NCBI GenBank assembly: GCA_026984795.1
Contig: JALSRK010000076.1
Coordinates: forward strand, 186,001 to 250,000
Length of the DNA: 64,000 nt
From: Solibacteraceae bacterium
GTDB taxonomy: Bacteria > Acidobacteriota > Terriglobia > Bryobacterales > Bryobacteraceae
Reading direction: 5' to 3'
The translations under genes were made by a program, and so were the position numbers. Below the pieces are notes generated by a model, which was given only the letters and a program-made list of their open reading frames with translations, was not told where the DNA came from and did no database searches. Shown piece after piece: positions 35,896-43,852 of this stretch (positions are counted from its first letter, which is position 1; every line of letters starts with the position of its first letter).

Positions 35896-36807
35896 TTACG
35901 ACACGACGCCGGCGACTTCGAGCAAGCTGGCAGGCGGCAGCAGCACGCCTAGCAAAAGTTTCAGGAACACCAGCAGGATCAGCGTGGCGAGCAACGCCAT
36001 CAATTTCTGGCCGCTCACCAGCCGGCTTAGGCGGGCGCCGAGTTGCGCGCCGACCGTCGAACCGACGGCCAACAGCAGCACCAGTACGATGTCCACCGTG
36101 TGGTTTTCCTGCGCTTGTAACATGGCCACGCCTGAGCAGGTGACCAGGATCTGGAACAGATCCGTCCCCACCGCGACGTGAACCGGCATGCCCAGCAGGT
36201 AGACCATCATCGGCACCATCATGAAACCGCCGCCCACACCCATGATGGCCGTCAAAGTTCCCACCGCCATGCCCATCAAAAAGGGGATATATACCGGCTG
36301 GCGGATCCCGGAACGGGAGAAGGTGGCCTGTAGAGGCAACCGGGCGAACAAACGCCCGTGCACCCGGCCGGCGCTCTCTTGCAAAGACTTTCGGCGGTGG
36401 GAAAGCACTGAGCGGACGAAGATCATCGTCCCAACAGTGCCCAGCAGCACGAGGTAGGCAAGGATGATGAGCAGATCCGCATTTCCGAGCAGCCGCAGAA
36501 CGTGGATCAGATGGACGCCCACCGCGGCTCCGAGCAGACCTCCGGGCACGACCAGTGCGCCGAGCTTCGCATCGACGTGGCCGAGGCGAAAATGGGCGGC
36601 GGCCCCCGACGAGGAAGTGGCGATGATGGCCGTGGCTCCGGAGGCGGTGGCCACGGTCGGAGGGATGCCGAGCATGATGAGGGTGGGGGATTGCAAGAAC
36701 CCGCCGCCGACGCCGAGCAATCCGGAAAGCGTCCCCACCAACAGCCCGAGTCCGATGAGGACAGGCAGGCTGAAGCTCAGGCCCGCCACTGGGAGCAACA
36801 CTGACAT
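35896..36807 (-). CDS. Sulfite exporter TauE/SafE family protein, copy 1
   Basis: 303 residues from the ATG at 36807, the same length as the neighbouring copy. Eight or so membrane helices, with the family repeat LSGLLGVGGGF and MGVGGGFMMVPMM at the start of each half. The family moves sulfite, sulfonates, sulfoacetate or other organosulfur anions across the inner membrane. It is most of a tandem duplication with 37127-38038. Its leader has TATAAT and a perfect hairpin. Confidence 0.92.
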   Translation of the reverse strand: MSVLLPVAGLSFSLPVLIGLGLLVGTLSGLLGVGGGFLQSPTLIMLGIPPTVATASGATAIIATSSSGAAAHFRLGHVDAKLGALVVPGGLLGAAVGVHLIHVLRLLGNADLLIILAYLVLLGTVGTMIFVRSVLSHRRKSLQESAGRVHGRLFARLPLQATFSRSGIRQPVYIPFLMGMAVGTLTAIMGVGGGFMMVPMMVYLLGMPVHVAVGTDLFQILVTCSGVAMLQAQENHTVDIVLVLLLAVGSTVGAQLGARLSRLVSGQKLMALLATLILLVFLKLLLGVLLPPASLLEVAGVVS

Positions 36808-37126
36808 CGTCCCACCACTGCTCGCGCCGTTCCGGCGCGAATCTGACATCAATTATACGTTTCCGCCGCCGAGAGTTACAACGCGGCCGGAATCCGTATC
36901 TCGCGGCAAGGGTGGGCCCGGTCGGTGGACACGGTGCAAACAGCGGCTTCTGCGCGGAAGGGCGTCGGGACGGCCGCGCCACGTCGCGCAGCGCCTCCCG
37001 ATGGGGTTCTCCGGACGTTTCTTCGAAAAGCAGCCCCCCGGGGCAGTCCCTGTGACGTCGGGTGATCATCCGCGTGGTTCCCCGGGCTGCTCCGCGCCGC
37101 CGGGATCTCCCGCCGCGATGTCGCGA
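36808..37126. other. Region between the two TauE copies
   Basis: 319 bases with the leader and promoter of copy 1. A perfect hairpin TCGCGCCG-TTC-CGGCGCGA (36822-36840) lies in the leader. Nothing else convincing; no insertion-sequence end is seen. Confidence 0.5.
36852..36881 (-). promoter_or_regulatory. Promoter of TauE/SafE copy 1
   Basis: On the minus strand TTGTAA (36881-36876), 18 bases, TATAAT (36857-36852), 44 bases before the start codon. The predicted leader contains the hairpin at 36822-36840. Confidence 0.55.
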
Positions 37127-38038
37127 TCACGAGACGACACCGGCGACTTCAAGCAGACTGGCGGGCGGCAGCAGAACGCCCAGCAACAACTTCAGGAAGA
37201 CCAGCAGCATCAGCGTGGCGAGCAGCATCATCAACTTCTGTCCGCTGGCGAGCCGGCTCAGCCGGGCGCCAAGCTGGGCGCCGCCCGTCGAGCCCAGCGC
37301 CAGCAGCAGCACCAACACAATGTCGACGGTGTGGTTTTCTTGAGCCTGCAGCATCGCTACGCCCGAACAGGTGACCAGGATCTGGAACAAGCTCGTCCCC
37401 ACGGCGACGTGGACGGGCATACCCAGCAGGTAGACCATCATCGGCACCATCACGAAGCCGCCGCCGACCCCCATGGTGGCCGTCAGGGTACCGACGGCCG
37501 CGCCCATCAAGAACGGTATGTATACCGGCTGGCGGATCCCGGAATGGGGGAACGTCATTTGCAGCGGCAACCGGTCGAAGAGATGGCCGTGCGGCTGACC
37601 GGCACCGGCTTCTGCGGGCTGCCGGCCGTGAGAGAAGACTGACCGGACGAATACCATGATTCCCACCGTGCCCAGGAGCACGAGATAGGCGAGAATGATG
37701 AGCAAGTTTGCATCTCCGAGCAGCCGTAGCACGTGGATCAGGTGGACGCCCGCCGCGGCTCCTAGCAAACCCCCGGGCACAAGCAATGCGCCCAGCTTGG
37801 CATCGACGTGGCCGAGGCGGAAGTGGGCGGCAGTCCCCGATGAGGAGGTGGCGATCATCGCCGTGGCTCCGGAAGCGGTGGCCACCGTCGGCGGGATGCC
37901 GAGCATGATCAGCGCCGGTGACTGCAAGAATCCGCCACCCACCCCCAGCAGTCCGGACAGCGTCCCTACCAGCAGCCCGAGTCCAACGAGGACCGGCAGA
38001 CTGATGCTCAAGCCCGCCACTGGGAGTAAGACCGCCAT
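37127..38038 (-). CDS. Sulfite exporter TauE/SafE family protein, copy 2
   Basis: 303 residues, alignable without gaps over nearly all of copy 1. It has the same LSGLLGVGGGF and MGVGGGFVMVPMM motifs. The main difference is the central loop after the fourth helix, where copy 1 has HRRKSLQESAGRVHG and copy 2 HGRQPAEAGAGQPHG. Both copies appear intact, so substrate or expression divergence may keep both. TATAAT lies 42 bases upstream, with a small hairpin in the leader, as in copy 1. Confidence 0.92.
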   Translation of the reverse strand: MAVLLPVAGLSISLPVLVGLGLLVGTLSGLLGVGGGFLQSPALIMLGIPPTVATASGATAMIATSSSGTAAHFRLGHVDAKLGALLVPGGLLGAAAGVHLIHVLRLLGDANLLIILAYLVLLGTVGIMVFVRSVFSHGRQPAEAGAGQPHGHLFDRLPLQMTFPHSGIRQPVYIPFLMGAAVGTLTATMGVGGGFVMVPMMVYLLGMPVHVAVGTSLFQILVTCSGVAMLQAQENHTVDIVLVLLLALGSTGGAQLGARLSRLASGQKLMMLLATLMLLVFLKLLLGVLLPPASLLEVAGVVS

Positions 38039-38304: not shown

Positions 38305-38463
38305 TCACCGCTTGCTTGCTCTCAACTGCCACAGCCGTCACGCGGCGCTCGCTGGCCCTGGTGGCGTGGTGGCCGTCGGCTGCCGGGAACCCGGGGCGTG
38401 GAAAGATAATGAGTCAATGGCTCGGCGGAATCCGTATACCAGAATGAGGGAACCAAGGACGGG

Positions 38464-39045
38464 ATGGGCGGCGTGACGCTGACACAGCTTCCGGCAGCGG
38501 CGCTGGGCTCGCACGAGGAGACCGGCTTCGCCGATCTCGTGCGCCGGCACCAGGCAATGGTCTACTCGATCGCCTACCATTTCCTGGGCGACCCGGCCCT
38601 GGCTGAAGAGCTGGCCCAGGACGTCTTCCTGCAGCTCTTCCACCACCTGCCGCGGCTCGAGTCGCCGCGGCACGCGGCGAACTGGTTGCGCCGCGTCGCC
38701 TGCCACCGGGCCATTGACTTCGCCCGCAAGCGTTCGCTGGTCCGCGAAGTGGATCTGGGGTCAGTTCCGGAACCGTCGATTGCGGCCGCTGAACCCGATC
38801 CACTGCTCAACGAGAAGCTGCGGCGGCTGGTGGCCTCGCTCCCGGAGAAACAACGGCTCCTGGTGATCCTCCGCTATCAGGAGGAGATGGAACCGCGGGA
38901 GATCGCCGAGGTCTTGAAAATGAGGCTGCCGACGGTCCGAACGCAGTTGTCCCGTGCGTTGGCGCTGCTTCGGAAAAAGGCCGGCGAGCTGTTCGGCGCC
39001 GGTGGATTTCGAGAGCCGGCGCGGCAGGGCAGGGAGGTGGATTGA
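38464..39045 (+). CDS. ECF-type sigma factor heading the caspase cluster
   Basis: 193 residues with regions 2 and 4 of group-4 sigma factors. Region 2 (about 20-85) has FADLVRRHQAMVYSIAYHFLGDPALAEELAQDVFLQLF and WLRRVACHRAIDFARKR; region 4 (about 115-170) has LPEKQRLLVILRYQEEMEPREIAEVLKM and a helix-turn-helix with TVRTQLSRALALLRKK. It overlaps the next gene by one base. It heads a row of six co-directional genes ending with a secreted caspase-like protein, so it is likely to control that row and perhaps other envelope genes. Confidence 0.92.
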   Translation: MGGVTLTQLPAAALGSHEETGFADLVRRHQAMVYSIAYHFLGDPALAEELAQDVFLQLFHHLPRLESPRHAANWLRRVACHRAIDFARKRSLVREVDLGSVPEPSIAAAEPDPLLNEKLRRLVASLPEKQRLLVILRYQEEMEPREIAEVLKMRLPTVRTQLSRALALLRKKAGELFGAGGFREPARQGREVD

Positions 39046-39401
39046 TGGATCGCTTCGAGAGACAGCTCCATCAGGCGCTGCGGCGGGTCGATCCGCCGCC
39101 CGGATTCGCCGAGGCGGTGATCGGACGGGCTGCCGCGGAGCCCAAACCAGGCCGTTGGCGGGGTCTCGCCGGGATCTTTCAGATGCCCGCGCGGCGATGG
39201 GCCGTCGCTACGGTCGCCGGCCTGGTGCTGTTGGCCGGCATCGGCTACGAGCGGGAAATGCGCCGGCGCCAGGGCGAGTTGGCCAGCCGCCAGGTGATCG
39301 AGGCGCTCGAGATAACCGCCGAACAGTTCCAGATCGCGCGGCGGCACGTCCAGCGGCTCAGTGCGGTCTGGGAAACTGCCGGAGAAGGGAGTCAGCAATG
39401 A
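39045..39401 (+). CDS. Small membrane protein in the anti-sigma position
   Basis: 118 residues from the ATG at 39045, with AGGGAGG seven bases upstream; it shares one base with the sigma stop codon. A cytosolic N-terminus (about 50 residues, FERQLHQALRRVDPPPGFAEAV), one membrane helix (about 52-68, WAVATVAGLVLLAGIGY) and a periplasmic helical tail. No zinc motif. The FxxxLxxALxxVxPPxGF pattern is common at the N-terminus of membrane proteins encoded after ECF sigma genes in Acidobacteria-like genomes, so an anti-sigma role is inferred from position and topology. It overlaps the DUF4252 gene by ATGA. Confidence 0.7.
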   Translation: MDRFERQLHQALRRVDPPPGFAEAVIGRAAAEPKPGRWRGLAGIFQMPARRWAVATVAGLVLLAGIGYEREMRRRQGELASRQVIEALEITAEQFQIARRHVQRLSAVWETAGEGSQQ

Positions 39402-39943
39402 AACAATCCATCCTGTTTCTGGCGTTGGCCGGGGCCGTCTGGGCCGCGCCGCAGGACATCCGCTTCCCCGCCAGCTTCGAGAAGCTGGCCGAGAAGGCGG
39501 AAGAAGCGGTGAATATCAACCTCGACGCCGACATGCTCGGTCTGGCGGCGAACTTCCTCTCCGACGGCAAGGCCGACCAGAAGCAAGTCAAGGAGATCGT
39601 CAAGGGCCTGAAGGGGATTTACATCCGGAGCTTCGAGTTTGCCCGGGCGGGCCAATACTCTATGGACGTCGTCGAAGAGATCGAAGAACAGCTGAAGCCG
39701 CCCGAGTGGGTCCCGGTGATCAGCGTCCAGAGCAAAAAGAGGGGCGGCGACAACGCCCGCATCTACTTCCGCCGGGAGAACGGCAAGATCTCCGGCATCA
39801 CCATCGTCTCGGCGGAGCCCAAACAGCTCACGGTGGTGCACATTATCGGGCTGCTCGAGCCGGGCGACCTGGCGAAGCTCGGGGGCAACTTCGGCATTCC
39901 CGACATGAGTTGGGGACCCGCCGTGAAGGGCGATGAGAAGTGA
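39398..39943 (+). CDS. DUF4252-like secreted protein
   Basis: 181 residues with a signal peptide (1-16, ending VWAAPQ). The mature part has the DUF4252 outline: an acidic helical first half (AEKAEEAVNINLDADML, IVKGLKGIYIRSFEFA) and a beta-rich second half (ARIYFRRENGKISGITIVSAEPKQLTVV cut in parts). Function unknown; such proteins are often encoded next to ECF sigma/anti-sigma pairs. It overlaps the membrane protein gene by four bases, which ties it to the sigma unit. Confidence 0.75.
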   Translation: MKQSILFLALAGAVWAAPQDIRFPASFEKLAEKAEEAVNINLDADMLGLAANFLSDGKADQKQVKEIVKGLKGIYIRSFEFARAGQYSMDVVEEIEEQLKPPEWVPVISVQSKKRGGDNARIYFRRENGKISGITIVSAEPKQLTVVHIIGLLEPGDLAKLGGNFGIPDMSWGPAVKGDEK

Positions 39944-40076
39944 GAAAGAGGAGGAGACAGGAGCCGGGGAACGGGTGGGGCGGCGTCCGGCCGCAACCGG
40001 CTTTTCCCTGTTACAACTTCCTGGTATTGTGAAACTAGCGGGCGGCCCGTGGGGCGCGCCTGCGAGGAGGGTGCGC

Positions 40077-41066
40077 ATGAAAGCGCGGAGTATTCCACTG
40101 TCGTGTCTTGGTGTGTTTCTGGTCTCCGGCGCCTTCCTGTTGCCGTCGCTGGCCCAGCAGGCAGGCGAGCAAACGGCTCGGAAACTGAGTGCCCGGGAGA
40201 TCTTCTATTCGGCTCCGAAGCTGGCGAAGAAAAAGCCGGCGCGGAAGCCTGCGCCGCCCGTAAAACCACCGGTGGCGAAACCCGAGCCCAAGCCGGCGGA
40301 TACCGGCGTGGACATTGCCGTAACCGCCCCGCCGAAGGTCCAGCCGCCAACGGCGCCTCCGGAGCCCGAGCCGGAACCCGCGACGCCCGCGGCCCCGCCT
40401 CCGGCTGCCGCGCCGGGCGGAGCGCAGTTCGTGCCCGCGTCGTTGAAGGAACCGGCGCCGATCGGGGTCCGCTGCAGCGTGCTGCGTCGCGTCGGGCCGT
40501 CGGAGCTGATCGAGGTCGATCCCGACCAGGTCTTCCGCGCCGGCGACCGCATCAAACTGCGCGTCGAGGCCAACGAAGACGGGTATCTCTACATCGTGAC
40601 GCGCGGCTCCAGCGGCGTCTGGAAGCCATTGTTCCCGTCGCCGCAGATTGCCGGCGGCAACAACTATGTCGAGGCCGGCCGGACTTATGACATCCCGCCG
40701 GGCCATGTCTTCACCTTCGACGAGCAGCCCGGCGAGGAAAAGATCTTCGTCGTCTTCTCGCGGACGCCGGTGACGGACCTCGAGGCGCTCATCTACGACC
40801 TGGGCAAGGGAGGCGGCACGCCGTCGAATGCGCCGAAGCCGGCCAAGCCCGCCGGCGGGGGCAAGATCCTGCTCGCCCAGAACATGGTCCACATCGAGGA
40901 TGATCTGGTCAGCCGGCTGCGGAACGCCTACGCCCGCGATCTGATCATCGAGAAGGTCAGCGAGGCCGAGCCCGGGCCGGAGAAGGAAGCGGCGATCTAC
41001 GCCGTCTCGACGGCGAGCTCTACCGATTCCCGCGTGGTTCTCGACCTGACCCTGCTGCACCGGTGA
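40077..41066 (+). CDS. DUF4384 secreted protein with Pro/Lys-rich linker
   Basis: 329 residues from the ATG at 40077, with GAGGAGG six bases upstream and a signal peptide (about 1-25). A Lys/Pro/Ala-rich linker (about 45-125) precedes a DUF4384 domain (about 135-245) with FRAGDRIKLRVEANEDGYLYIV, and a C-terminal region with a Gly/Lys/Pro-rich break. DUF4384 domains are often found with caspase-like peptidases or kinases; the molecular role is unknown. A 133-base gap separates it from the DUF4252 gene; the next DUF4384 gene begins two bases after its stop. Confidence 0.85.
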   Translation: MKARSIPLSCLGVFLVSGAFLLPSLAQQAGEQTARKLSAREIFYSAPKLAKKKPARKPAPPVKPPVAKPEPKPADTGVDIAVTAPPKVQPPTAPPEPEPEPATPAAPPPAAAPGGAQFVPASLKEPAPIGVRCSVLRRVGPSELIEVDPDQVFRAGDRIKLRVEANEDGYLYIVTRGSSGVWKPLFPSPQIAGGNNYVEAGRTYDIPPGHVFTFDEQPGEEKIFVVFSRTPVTDLEALIYDLGKGGGTPSNAPKPAKPAGGGKILLAQNMVHIEDDLVSRLRNAYARDLIIEKVSEAEPGPEKEAAIYAVSTASSTDSRVVLDLTLLHR

Positions 41067-41067
41067 C

Positions 41068-41751
41068 ATGCGAGTTCGAACGATTCTCTGCTGCCTGTGG
41101 GGCGCGGCTGTCTTTTACGCTCAGCAGCCCGCGCCCGATACCCACCGGATGCAGATCACCTTGGAGCGGCAAACCGAAAACGGCGCCTGGGAGGTGATCG
41201 ATCCCGGCCTGGTGCTCCAGAAGGGTGACAAAGTGCGCTTCCGCTTCCAGGCCAATTTCGACGGCTACCTCTACGTGATGAACCAGGGCACCAGCGGCCG
41301 GTACGAGCTACTGTTCCCCCGCGAGGAGACCGGTGAGGACAACCGCATTGAGGCCGGCGTCGAGTACCGGATCCCGGCGACGCAGGCCTGGTTCCGCATC
41401 GACGGGCCGCCGGGCCACGACATCGTCTATTGGATGGTGACGCCGCTCAAACTGGGCGGCGCGCCGAAATACCGCCCGCTGCCGCCTCCGCCGAAGCCGC
41501 TGCCCCCGCCGGCGAACCTGCTGCCGCGTTGCGACGATTCGATCTTTCGGGCCCGCGGCGTCTGCATAGACTCTTCGGCCGGGCCACGCCAGGTAGGCAA
41601 GGAAGAAGATTTGCCGCCGAATCTGGCCCGCGTGCCGGAGCTTCGCAGCCGGGAACTGGTGATCATGCGGAAGGGCGAGGAAGCGGTGATCTCATCGCCG
41701 GCCGTCGCCCAGGCACCGGTGCTGTACGAGTTCCGCATCGCGCACAAATAA
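41068..41751 (+). CDS. Second DUF4384 secreted protein
   Basis: 227 residues with a signal peptide (about 1-18, ILCCLWGAAVFYAQQ). The DUF4384 domain (about 25-125) has LQKGDKVRFRFQANFDGYLYVMNQGTSG cut as in the neighbour, and EAGVEYRIP. It is a divergent paralogue of the previous protein: the gene order, domain core and spacing match, but it lacks the long Pro/Lys-rich linker; a short Pro-rich stretch follows the domain instead. Translation is probably coupled to the previous gene. Thirteen bases separate it from the caspase gene. Confidence 0.85.
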   Translation: MRVRTILCCLWGAAVFYAQQPAPDTHRMQITLERQTENGAWEVIDPGLVLQKGDKVRFRFQANFDGYLYVMNQGTSGRYELLFPREETGEDNRIEAGVEYRIPATQAWFRIDGPPGHDIVYWMVTPLKLGGAPKYRPLPPPPKPLPPPANLLPRCDDSIFRARGVCIDSSAGPRQVGKEEDLPPNLARVPELRSRELVIMRKGEEAVISSPAVAQAPVLYEFRIAHK

Positions 41752-41764
41752 GGGGGGAGAGGCC

Positions 41765-43852
41765 ATGTGGAAACCGCTGATCGCTTGGAACCTGATCCTG
41801 GCCGCCACAGCCGCGGCAGGTCTCGGACAGCAAAAGCCCGCCACCCAAGAGCGCGATCTGCGCGTCGAGGCCGACACCACCGAGACCCGGCCCTTGATCC
41901 CTGAGCCGGGCAAGGTGGTGATCCCCCGCAGCTACGCCGTGGTGATCGGAATTTCGAAGTACCAGAACCTCTCCGCTGAACAGCAGCTCCATTTCGCCGA
42001 GCGGGACGCCCAGGCGATGTATTCGATCCTGATCAGCCCCGAGGGCGGCAACTTCCGCGCCGAGAACGTCCACCGGCTCATCGGGCCGGATGCCACACTA
42101 GCGAACCTGAAGCGCGAGCTCGAAGAATGGCTGCCTTCGGTAGCCAAGCCTGAGGACCGCGTGCTCGTCTACTTCGCCGGGCACGGCTTCGTCGTAAACG
42201 GCACGCCATACCTGGCGCCGTACGACTTCAAGGTTGACGACGTCGCCGCCACGGCTTACCCGATGGAGCGGCTGGGCAAGGTCTTCGGCTCCAAGATCCA
42301 GGCCAAGTGGAAAGTGCTGATCACCGACTCCTGCCACAGCGGCGCTATCACGCCCGAAGCGGCGGCCCGGACAATCAACCGTTCCCTGCTCGATCTCAGC
42401 ACCTCGATCTTTTCGCTCACCGCCAGCCGCGACCGCGAGCGCTCCTTCGAGAGCGAGGATTGGGGAGGCGGCCACGGGATCTTCACTTACTACGTGGTCC
42501 GCGGTCTGGAAGGCGCTGCTGACGACAACGGCGACGGCATCGTGACGGCGGATGAGTTGGCCGAGTACGTCCACCGCAACGTGCGCGAGGCTACCGGCGG
42601 CCGCCAGAACCCGACCTCTGAGCGGGGCAGCTTCGATCCCAACATGCTGCTGGCTTACGTGCCGAGCCGCATCCGGGCCCCCGAGCCTGCCGCGCCGAAG
42701 TTCGGCGCCCTCATCTTCGAGACCAACATGGACGGCGTCGAGGTCTTCGTGGACGGCAAGAGCGTCGGCGTGGTGAACCGCGACAAGCCCCTGCGGCTGC
42801 CCGGCCTGACCCCCGGCGCCCACACGATCAAAGCCGTCAAACAGGGTTATGAGCCGGACGGTCCGCGCGAGGAGATGGTCTATCCGGGGCAGGAGAAGAC
42901 CGTCAGCATCAAGATTCTGATCCTCAGGCGCCGCAACCGCGCGGCGGTGGAAGCCTTCGACAAAGGTCTCGAGTACTACCAGCGGGGTTTCGCCAATAAC
43001 TATCGCAAGGCGGTCCGCCACTTCCTCCGGGCGCTGGAGATCGACCCGAAGTATAGTCAGGCGGCCCTCTATCTCGGCCGCACCTACAATGCCCTTTACG
43101 AAGAGCAGAAGGCCCAGGAGTATTTCCGGAAAGCCATCGAAATCGATCCGGACTATATGGAGGCCCGGGCCAGCTACGCCGGCATGCTGCTCGACATCGG
43201 CGACGTCGATGAGGCGATTCGACAACTCAACGTCGTCGTCCAGCGCCGCCCCGACGATGAAGTGGCGCTCTATCTGCAGGCCCAGGCCTTCCGGATGAAG
43301 GGGATGTATGAAGAATCGATCAAGGCGGCCCGGCGCTCGATCCGGCTGGCGCCGAACAACCCCGAGGCCCATTTCTGGTTGGCCGAGAGCCTTCGCTTGA
43401 GCGGGCAGTACGGCGAGTCGATCCCCGAGTACGAGGAGTACCTGCGCTTGAGCGACTTCAACAGCAAACTCGCCGGGAAGCTGAACTATTACGTGCTCGG
43501 CTTCCTGATTGGCCACGGCAAGAAGAAGCGCGCCGCGCAGCAGGACATCTGGCGCGACCTGCGCAGCCTGGCCTACTTCGGCATCTGCGACGCCAACCGC
43601 AAACTGAAGAAATACGAAGAAGCGATCCGCTATTGCCGCAAATCGCTCTCCTACGATCCGCAGGATCCTTACGTCCACTACGCCCTGGGGCTGGCTTACG
43701 CCCGCGAGGCTCAGAATGAGGGCAGCGTTGAACTGCTTGCCGCCGCGTGCAAGCACTTCCGCGCCATGCTCGACATCAACCCTTATATGGCGGAAGCCGA
43801 CTACGCCCGCAAGAACATCGCCAGCATCCAGGGCTACCTGCCCTGCCAGTGA
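41765..43852 (+). CDS. Secreted caspase-like peptidase (C14) with PEGA and TPR repeats
   Basis: 695 residues with a signal peptide (about 1-22). The caspase-fold domain (about 55-300) starts SYAVVIGISKYQNL and has the catalytic dyad H140 (YFAGHGF) and C190 (DSCHSGAI). A PEGA-like domain (about 315-390, VEVFVDGKSVGVVN) and at least six TPR units (about 400-690, for example ALEIDPKYSQAALYLGRTYN) follow. Bacterial C14 proteases of this type cleave after basic residues and act in stress or developmental programmes; substrates are mostly unknown. Here the enzyme is exported, so it should act in the periplasm or envelope, with TPRs as docking surface. Last gene of the sigma-DUF4384 cluster. Confidence 0.92.
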   Translation: MWKPLIAWNLILAATAAAGLGQQKPATQERDLRVEADTTETRPLIPEPGKVVIPRSYAVVIGISKYQNLSAEQQLHFAERDAQAMYSILISPEGGNFRAENVHRLIGPDATLANLKRELEEWLPSVAKPEDRVLVYFAGHGFVVNGTPYLAPYDFKVDDVAATAYPMERLGKVFGSKIQAKWKVLITDSCHSGAITPEAAARTINRSLLDLSTSIFSLTASRDRERSFESEDWGGGHGIFTYYVVRGLEGAADDNGDGIVTADELAEYVHRNVREATGGRQNPTSERGSFDPNMLLAYVPSRIRAPEPAAPKFGALIFETNMDGVEVFVDGKSVGVVNRDKPLRLPGLTPGAHTIKAVKQGYEPDGPREEMVYPGQEKTVSIKILILRRRNRAAVEAFDKGLEYYQRGFANNYRKAVRHFLRALEIDPKYSQAALYLGRTYNALYEEQKAQEYFRKAIEIDPDYMEARASYAGMLLDIGDVDEAIRQLNVVVQRRPDDEVALYLQAQAFRMKGMYEESIKAARRSIRLAPNNPEAHFWLAESLRLSGQYGESIPEYEEYLRLSDFNSKLAGKLNYYVLGFLIGHGKKKRAAQQDIWRDLRSLAYFGICDANRKLKKYEEAIRYCRKSLSYDPQDPYVHYALGLAYAREAQNEGSVELLAAACKHFRAMLDINPYMAEADYARKNIASIQGYLPCQ

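Follow-up and report, generated by a model that had tools for sequence, protein, structure and literature searches.

We analysed a 64,000-nucleotide stretch of DNA from a Solibacteraceae bacterium (contig JALSRK010000076.1; hereafter the window), in which six genes at positions 38464 to 43852 encode a sigma factor of the extracytoplasmic function (ECF) type, a single-pass membrane protein, a DUF4252 protein, two DUF4384 proteins (DUF4384a and DUF4384b) and a caspase-PEGA-TPR protein. In this six-gene order two modules happen to adjoin, with the 133-base gap in front of DUF4384a as the seam between them; each module is conserved in relatives, but apart from the other. We consider it rather probable that the two modules are independent: a self-driven sigma module (module A) adjoining an exported caspase (module B) that is complexed with DUF4384a and DUF4384b and docked around residue 50 of DUF4384b. 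The genes and the catalytic and cysteine residues are the following.

38464..39045, + strand: ECF sigma factor, module A, 193 residues (Pfam Sigma70_r2, E 1.7e-16; r4_2, E 4.1e-13)
39045..39401, + strand: single-pass membrane protein in the anti-sigma position, module A; 1-base overlap with the sigma gene
39398..39943, + strand: exported DUF4252 protein, module A (Pfam PF14060, E 1.1e-16); 4-base overlap with the gene in the anti-sigma position
39944..40076, + strand: seam between the modules, 133 bases; best sigma-motif score 6.0, without a terminator-like site
40077..41066, + strand: DUF4384a, exported, with a proline-rich linker, module B (Pfam E 1.5e-17)
41068..41751, + strand: DUF4384b, exported, module B (Pfam E 3.3e-16); 1-base gap after DUF4384a
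41530..41565, + strand: C155 to C166 of DUF4384b, a likely disulfide; both Cys in 34/34 rows
41765..43852, + strand: exported caspase (C14)-PEGA-TPR protein, module B (Pfam Peptidase_C14, E 6.5e-17); 13-base gap before it
42182-42184, + strand: caspase H140, in 37/37 rows covering the residue
42326-42328, + strand: caspase D188, close to the catalytic Cys, in 37/37 rows covering the residue
42332-42334, + strand: caspase C190, in 37/37 rows covering the residue

The layout described in the initial annotation, six genes on one strand with overlaps and gaps of these sizes, agrees with the open reading frame coordinates, and Pfam bore out its domain calls (ECF sigma, DUF4252, two DUF4384, C14 caspase with TPRs). 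Sigma regions 2 and 4 are both present in the 193-residue protein, as expected of an ECF sigma factor. The DUF4384 family PF14326 scored 63.9 and 59.6 bits against a cut-off of 27 bits, and PF14060 scored 61.6 bits against 23.9 bits in the DUF4252 protein, while the PEGA domain stayed 0.2 bits under its Pfam cut-off (20.6 versus 20.8). The His-Cys dyad lies inside the C14 domain, which identifies the protein as an orthocaspase (peptidase C14); the dyad is intact, as annotated, and both residues are present in all the rows covering them in an alignment of the window copy with 36 relatives. Cleavage of the Arg/Lys type is predicted for this caspase, the feature seen in the sequence being the invariant D188 near the Cys. 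Signal peptides were assigned by eye, and the Cys pair of DUF4384b would fit an oxidising compartment. The anti-sigma role given to the second protein is kept by position only, together with one hydrophobic segment seen by eye. No recognised anti-sigma domain was found in it, with no Pfam match above cut-off and an NCBIfam 'antisigma' match below cut-off (E 0.006, 16.6 versus 100 bits).

The gene neighbourhoods were compared in 120 genomes of the taxonomic order, 237 genomes of the family and a 247-genome sample of the phylum. The six genes had been put forward as one candidate system, a proposal that a lack of conserved order in related genomes would refute; the six-gene order was found in no related genome with readable places. 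In the taxonomic order, 70 genomes carried DUF4252 and 72 carried DUF4384; 48 genomes, counting that of the window, carried both, and a by-eye comparison of the matches listed gave no DUF4252-DUF4384 pair within 10 kb outside the window's genome. In the family, 146 genomes held DUF4252 and 124 held DUF4384a, with both in 75 genomes besides that of the window. The comparison of places covered 72 of these 75 (G392, G394 and G450 were left out), and among the matches listed the two genes came within 10 kb of each other in 0/72; in four of the 72 they share a contig, with some 0.5 to 2 Mb between them. The phylum sample contained 10 other genomes with both genes, which stood together in none of them among the matches listed.

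Reading of the DNA itself found no adjacency of the two modules at 78 DUF4252 loci (29 from the order, 20 from the phylum and 29 from the family, genomes being partly repeated; 76 with at least 600 bases visible behind DUF4252) or at 58 DUF4384a loci (29 + 29; 41 with at least 600 bases visible in front). In longer stretches, of up to 12.5 kb, a DUF4252 open reading frame was met at 0/40 module B loci and a DUF4384 open reading frame at 0/20 module A loci. Genomes with the caspase were not enriched for DUF4252 (35/56, versus 35/64 of those without caspase, p 0.46). The closest caspase, 76% identical, belongs to genome G118, where it lies on a contig that breaks off within DUF4384a; G118 does not figure among the DUF4252-matching genomes.

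Each module is well kept on its own. For module A, a sigma homologue was found upstream of DUF4252 at 29/29 loci of the order and 26/29 of the family, and within the stretch at 29/29 phylum loci; at 25 of the 29 order loci, DUF4252 was accompanied by homologues of both the sigma factor and the protein in the anti-sigma position. Some of these sigma modules carry a second DUF4252 gene in tandem behind the first (loci L026, L031 and L032). Upstream of the sigma gene, relatives share a two-part motif, approximately TTTGC[AG]TC, 13-14 bases and TTCGTATT. The motif was learned from 27 upstream-of-sigma sequences with the window held out, and scored 480.7 against 288.8-305.4 in eight shuffles. Of 23 held-out loci entered, three were without a sigma match; 19 of the remaining 20 reached at least 10 bits, compared with 6.6% of the null, in genomes outside the training set of which many share a genus with a training genome. 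The corresponding element of the window is

38408..38438, + strand: putative promoter of the sigma type for module A (TGAGTC, 17 bases, CGTATA), placed and spaced like the motif of relatives; 6.3 bits

This element is weak, its -10 fitting well and its -35 badly, and its 6.3 bits, not above 67% of the null, are unremarkable alone. In front of DUF4384a the motif is at background: 6/36 loci reached at least 10 bits, compared with 12% of the null, and the window scored 6.0. Since the motif stands before the sigma gene and is at background before DUF4384a, the DNA supports self-regulation of module A in relatives and not a direct control of module B by sigma. Module A thus probably drives its own promoter, as suggested by the conservation of the motif in relatives and, by extension, for this genome. 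The motif is present across the family (loci L183-L211 and L005-L034) and can be used for finding the sigma regulon.

The initial annotation had proposed that an envelope signal frees the sigma factor, which then raises the DUF4384 pair and the caspase; in a single envelope stress operon DUF4252 would be raised with them. The junctions are indeed tight save for one gap, that gap is without a terminator-like site, and a -10 element is recognisable before the sigma gene. Against these features stand the order, found in no other genome with readable places in the 237 family genomes or the phylum sample, the caspase genomes without DUF4252 enrichment, and the background level of the sigma motif before DUF4384a in relatives, the gap of the window holding no good sigma-type promoter match either. 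A single stress operon is therefore quite unlikely on this evidence, and the six genes are rejected as one conserved operon. Two parts of that proposal are retained, namely the ECF sigma/anti-sigma/DUF4252 unit, which in relatives has a sigma-type promoter, and the exported caspase that belongs with a pair of exported DUF4384 proteins; their linkage in one system is not retained. As no terminator-like site was found in the 133-base gap, transcription could read through from A to B in this genome, and the placing of module B under sigma by such read-through is possible but unsupported.

The caspase, DUF4384a and DUF4384b form a conserved trio. The caspase-PEGA-TPR protein was found in 56 of the 120 order genomes (E 1e-60), and DUF4384 was present in 56/56 of these versus 16/64 of the others (Fisher p 6e-20, uncorrected for relatedness). 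DUF4384b lies downstream of DUF4384a at 29/29 family and 24/29 order loci, and the caspase at 27/29 and 25/29, respectively, the misses including contig or stretch ends. In two genomes of the genus group g36 the caspase is separated from the DUF4384 pair, which is kept: the caspase of G103 is on another contig and that of G108 is about 7 kb off on the opposite strand. In both genomes a kinase gene precedes the DUF4384 pair, recognised by Pfam in G103 and as a look-alike frame in G108.

A Ser/Thr kinase family is the commonest neighbour of module B (14/40 loci, 12/22 genera and 12/75 immediate flanks), compared with 1/20 loci for module A, and all four kinase members tested contained Pkinase and FGE-sulfatase domains. 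Kinases beside the trio occur at loci L132, L137, L144, L148, L150-L153, L155 and L156, and are co-directional and upstream at six loci. In many relatives such a Ser/Thr kinase, which often carries an FGE-type domain, is a likelier input of module B than sigma. A motif search upstream of DUF4384a scored 443.8, above all ten shuffles (384-424), without a recognisable consensus.

The mature tails of the trio proteins are poorly conserved outside short motifs, which are listed here together with DUF4384b residue 50, which covaries with positions in two of them.

40194..40211, + strand: motif [AP]-R-[EDQK]-[LIAVM]-F-[YF] in the mature N-tail of DUF4384a (residues 40-45); R40 and F43 in 37/37 rows covering them
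40935..40958, + strand: DUF4384a residues 287-294, C-terminal strand R-D-L-[VI]-[FIV]-[ET]-K-V; R and D in 37/37 counted rows
41215..41217, + strand: DUF4384b residue 50, candidate docking contact, covarying with DUF4384a 291 and caspase 34
41852..41875, + strand: caspase residues 30-37, R-D-L-R-V-E-A-D, a peptide in the mature N-tail that looks like DUF4384a 287-294

In the caspase tail, R30 and D31 are found in 37/37 rows and L32 in 36, giving a near-invariant consensus R-D-L-x-[FYV]-E similar to the strand at the C-terminus of DUF4384a. When a profile was made from that DUF4384a strand, it scored 10.4 bits on the caspase tails versus -8.6 (standard deviation 0.7) on shuffled tails, and -7.8 and -6.5 on the N-tails of DUF4384a and DUF4384b, somewhat above their own shuffles (-10.5 and -8.5).

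The fourth residue after the Arg toggles between aromatic and aliphatic jointly in the caspase and DUF4384a. Aromatic caspases go with an aromatic DUF4384a in 20/20 cases and the other caspases with a non-aromatic one in 12/15 (p 5e-7); collapsed by genus, the table reads 9, 0, 2, 10 (p 2e-4). Among 406 variable columns of DUF4384a and DUF4384b, the best partner of caspase 34 is DUF4384a 291 (0.50), the next being DUF4384b 50 (0.37), which is also its second-best of 1008 columns. The best partner of DUF4384a 291 among 1003 columns, the caspase included, is in turn DUF4384b 50 (0.69). On a midpoint-rooted caspase tree built with the tail removed, in which several nodes are weakly supported, the three positions switch together on three or four branches, with exceptions, and need 5, 4 and 4 changes, largely on common branches. 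The caspase and its two DUF4384 partners thus appear to have changed in step, and the linked changes across the trio suggest a docking of the protease on its partners. A motif table based on regular expressions was discarded, as it took DUF4384b for DUF4384a in some rows; its Glu/non-Glu comparison (p 0.01) was weaker than the alignment-based one (1e-6).

Two other explanations were considered for the shared peptide. The R-[DE]-L motifs could be cleavage sites: the caspase would cut both its tail and the DUF4384 partners just after the invariant Arg, and the covariation would then reflect a shared specificity. Plant metacaspases cleave after Arg or Lys, at least one of them preferring an acidic P1' residue, and this would agree with the invariant Arg-Asp of the caspase tail and the DUF4384a end, with the acidic residue that follows R40 in 34 of 37 DUF4384a N-tails (Glu or Asp; Gln in 2 and Lys in 1) and with the conserved D188 near the catalytic Cys. 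The covarying residues, however, lie 4-5 positions past the Arg, residue 50 of DUF4384b is outside any such motif, and the C-terminal copy of DUF4384a is modelled, at low confidence, as a strand; we hold cleavage sites to be an improbable account. It is very unlikely that the caspase is sorted or anchored through its R-D-L tail by a third envelope receptor, with the DUF4384a copies as further ligands of that receptor: the peptide does directly follow the signal peptide, and R-D-[LI] recurs in 7/7 paralogues read, four of them without a DUF4384 match nearby, but the best covarying columns are inside the trio (only trio columns having been compared) and no such receptor is known.

Several observations weigh against two independent modules with a docked caspase. 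The assemblies are fragmented, and the genus of the window is represented by one genome. Kinase enrichment at the level of open reading frames is modest (p 0.014), and no kinase was seen among the immediate neighbours of the window copy. Module B has an exported-looking family, F1, as its neighbour almost as often (12/40 loci), and a second such family, F2, at 10 loci, so that the kinase is not the sole recurrent neighbour. The covariation comes from 35 related rows with 4-5 parsimony changes and several weakly supported nodes, and is broken at L156 (DUF4384b) and at L144, L150 and L159 (caspase). The position five residues after the Arg covaries too, and several unrelated columns score as high; it was given no weight because many columns follow the same clade pattern. 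The AlphaFold models are of low confidence (mean 44 and 53) and uninformative on docking. Finally, the R-D-[LI] tail is kept in all seven caspase paralogues read (36-41% identity), including 4/4 caspase-TPR paralogues of about 40% identity (L242-L245) without a DUF4384 match in the 7.5-8 kb around them, so that the peptide may bind something else and may have a wider or older role.

With these reservations, two adjoining modules remain our preferred interpretation. In module A, the ECF sigma factor would drive its own promoter and be held by the short anti-sigma protein in the membrane; the exported DUF4252 protein would be their partner. In module B, a predicted Arg/Lys-type orthocaspase would act outside the cytoplasm in complex with the two exported DUF4384 proteins. 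The N-terminal peptide of the caspase and the C-terminal strand of DUF4384a may both dock on one surface of DUF4384b around residue 50, and this docking would tether or gate the protease, while the TPR array may bind client proteins. Kinases may feed the system in some relatives, and in this genome read-through across the 133-base gap could additionally put module B under sigma. A more specific version, to which we give little credence, is that the caspase and DUF4384a compete for one DUF4384b groove through the same R-D-L-x-aromatic/aliphatic-E strand, strand exchange holding or releasing the protease and a cut by the caspase at the invariant Arg-Asp within that strand making the switch irreversible. 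If true, it would constitute a protease-controlled strand-exchange switch in the bacterial envelope.

To our knowledge, bacterial caspase relatives are mainly known as single proteins with unclear partners. Here, an exported caspase occurs with DUF4384 partners across a bacterial family, and the sequences name residues of possible contact, so that partner choice and control of an envelope caspase could be tested using point mutants and a small set of purified proteins. The six genes also illustrate how two modules that adjoin in one place can have the look of a tight operon.

An anti-phage defence system was considered and rejected, as only the caspase-TPR protein matches PADLOC models (generic caspase, PrimPol, TPR and one candidate model) and the five other proteins match none. 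A 437-residue frame labelled as caspase beside module A (L164) is a TPR protein without a caspase domain, and a frame labelled as sigma (L138) is a fragment of region 4, 73 residues long and on the opposite strand. In a PDB sequence search with the whole caspase protein, the 60 of 71 matches listed were all on the TPR part only; searches with the caspase domain, and with DUF4384b as a three-row profile, gave no match. In one genome without the main caspase, DUF4384-like frames precede a different, 502-residue caspase-like protein (L255, 1777-6399) that has no R-D-L tail; the matches are weak, and this would be a second type of DUF4384-caspase cluster. Upstream of module A, the window contains two adjoining TauE/SafE-type exporter genes (35896-36852 and 37127-38038, both on the - strand), near-identical by eye as if tandem-duplicated; the Pfam scan covered the second, which matches TauE (E 3.1e-44).

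Both modules have counterparts among known systems. Module A resembles pairs of ECF sigma and membrane anti-sigma factors in the 1-base overlap between the sigma and single-pass genes and in the sigma-type promoter before sigma in relatives; it differs in its motif, TTTGC[AG]TC-N13/14-TTCGTATT, and in the exported DUF4252 partner. In many relatives, module B is flanked by Hanks-type kinases that bear an FGE-sulfatase domain; these are encoded by genes of their own, and none was seen beside the window copy. The best NCBIfam match of the window caspase is to the EACC1-associated caspases (NF047832, E 4.9e-29), from which it differs in scoring 101.3 bits against a cut-off of 140 and in being exported. 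Our searches of an open-access library gave no paper on a split, exported caspase-DUF4384 trio or on the shared peptide. Published work describes operon-borne metacaspases as well as metacaspases that probably have signal peptides (PMC3501461); DUF4384 is joined to the C14 caspase in 23 cyanobacterial proteins (Table 1 of PMC8283722) and is C-terminal in an orthocaspase clade with a QC dyad (PMC6426788), and DUF4384-caspase fusions are reported for cyanobacteria and alphaproteobacteria (PMC6426788, PMC8283722). Like these orthocaspases, the window has a C14 caspase linked to DUF4384; in them DUF4384 is part of the caspase chain, whereas in the window two separate exported proteins contain it and PEGA and TPR domains are found in the caspase. 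Fused DUF4384-caspases being already published, what appears to be new here is the split, exported caspase-DUF4384 trio and its shared R-D-L peptide.

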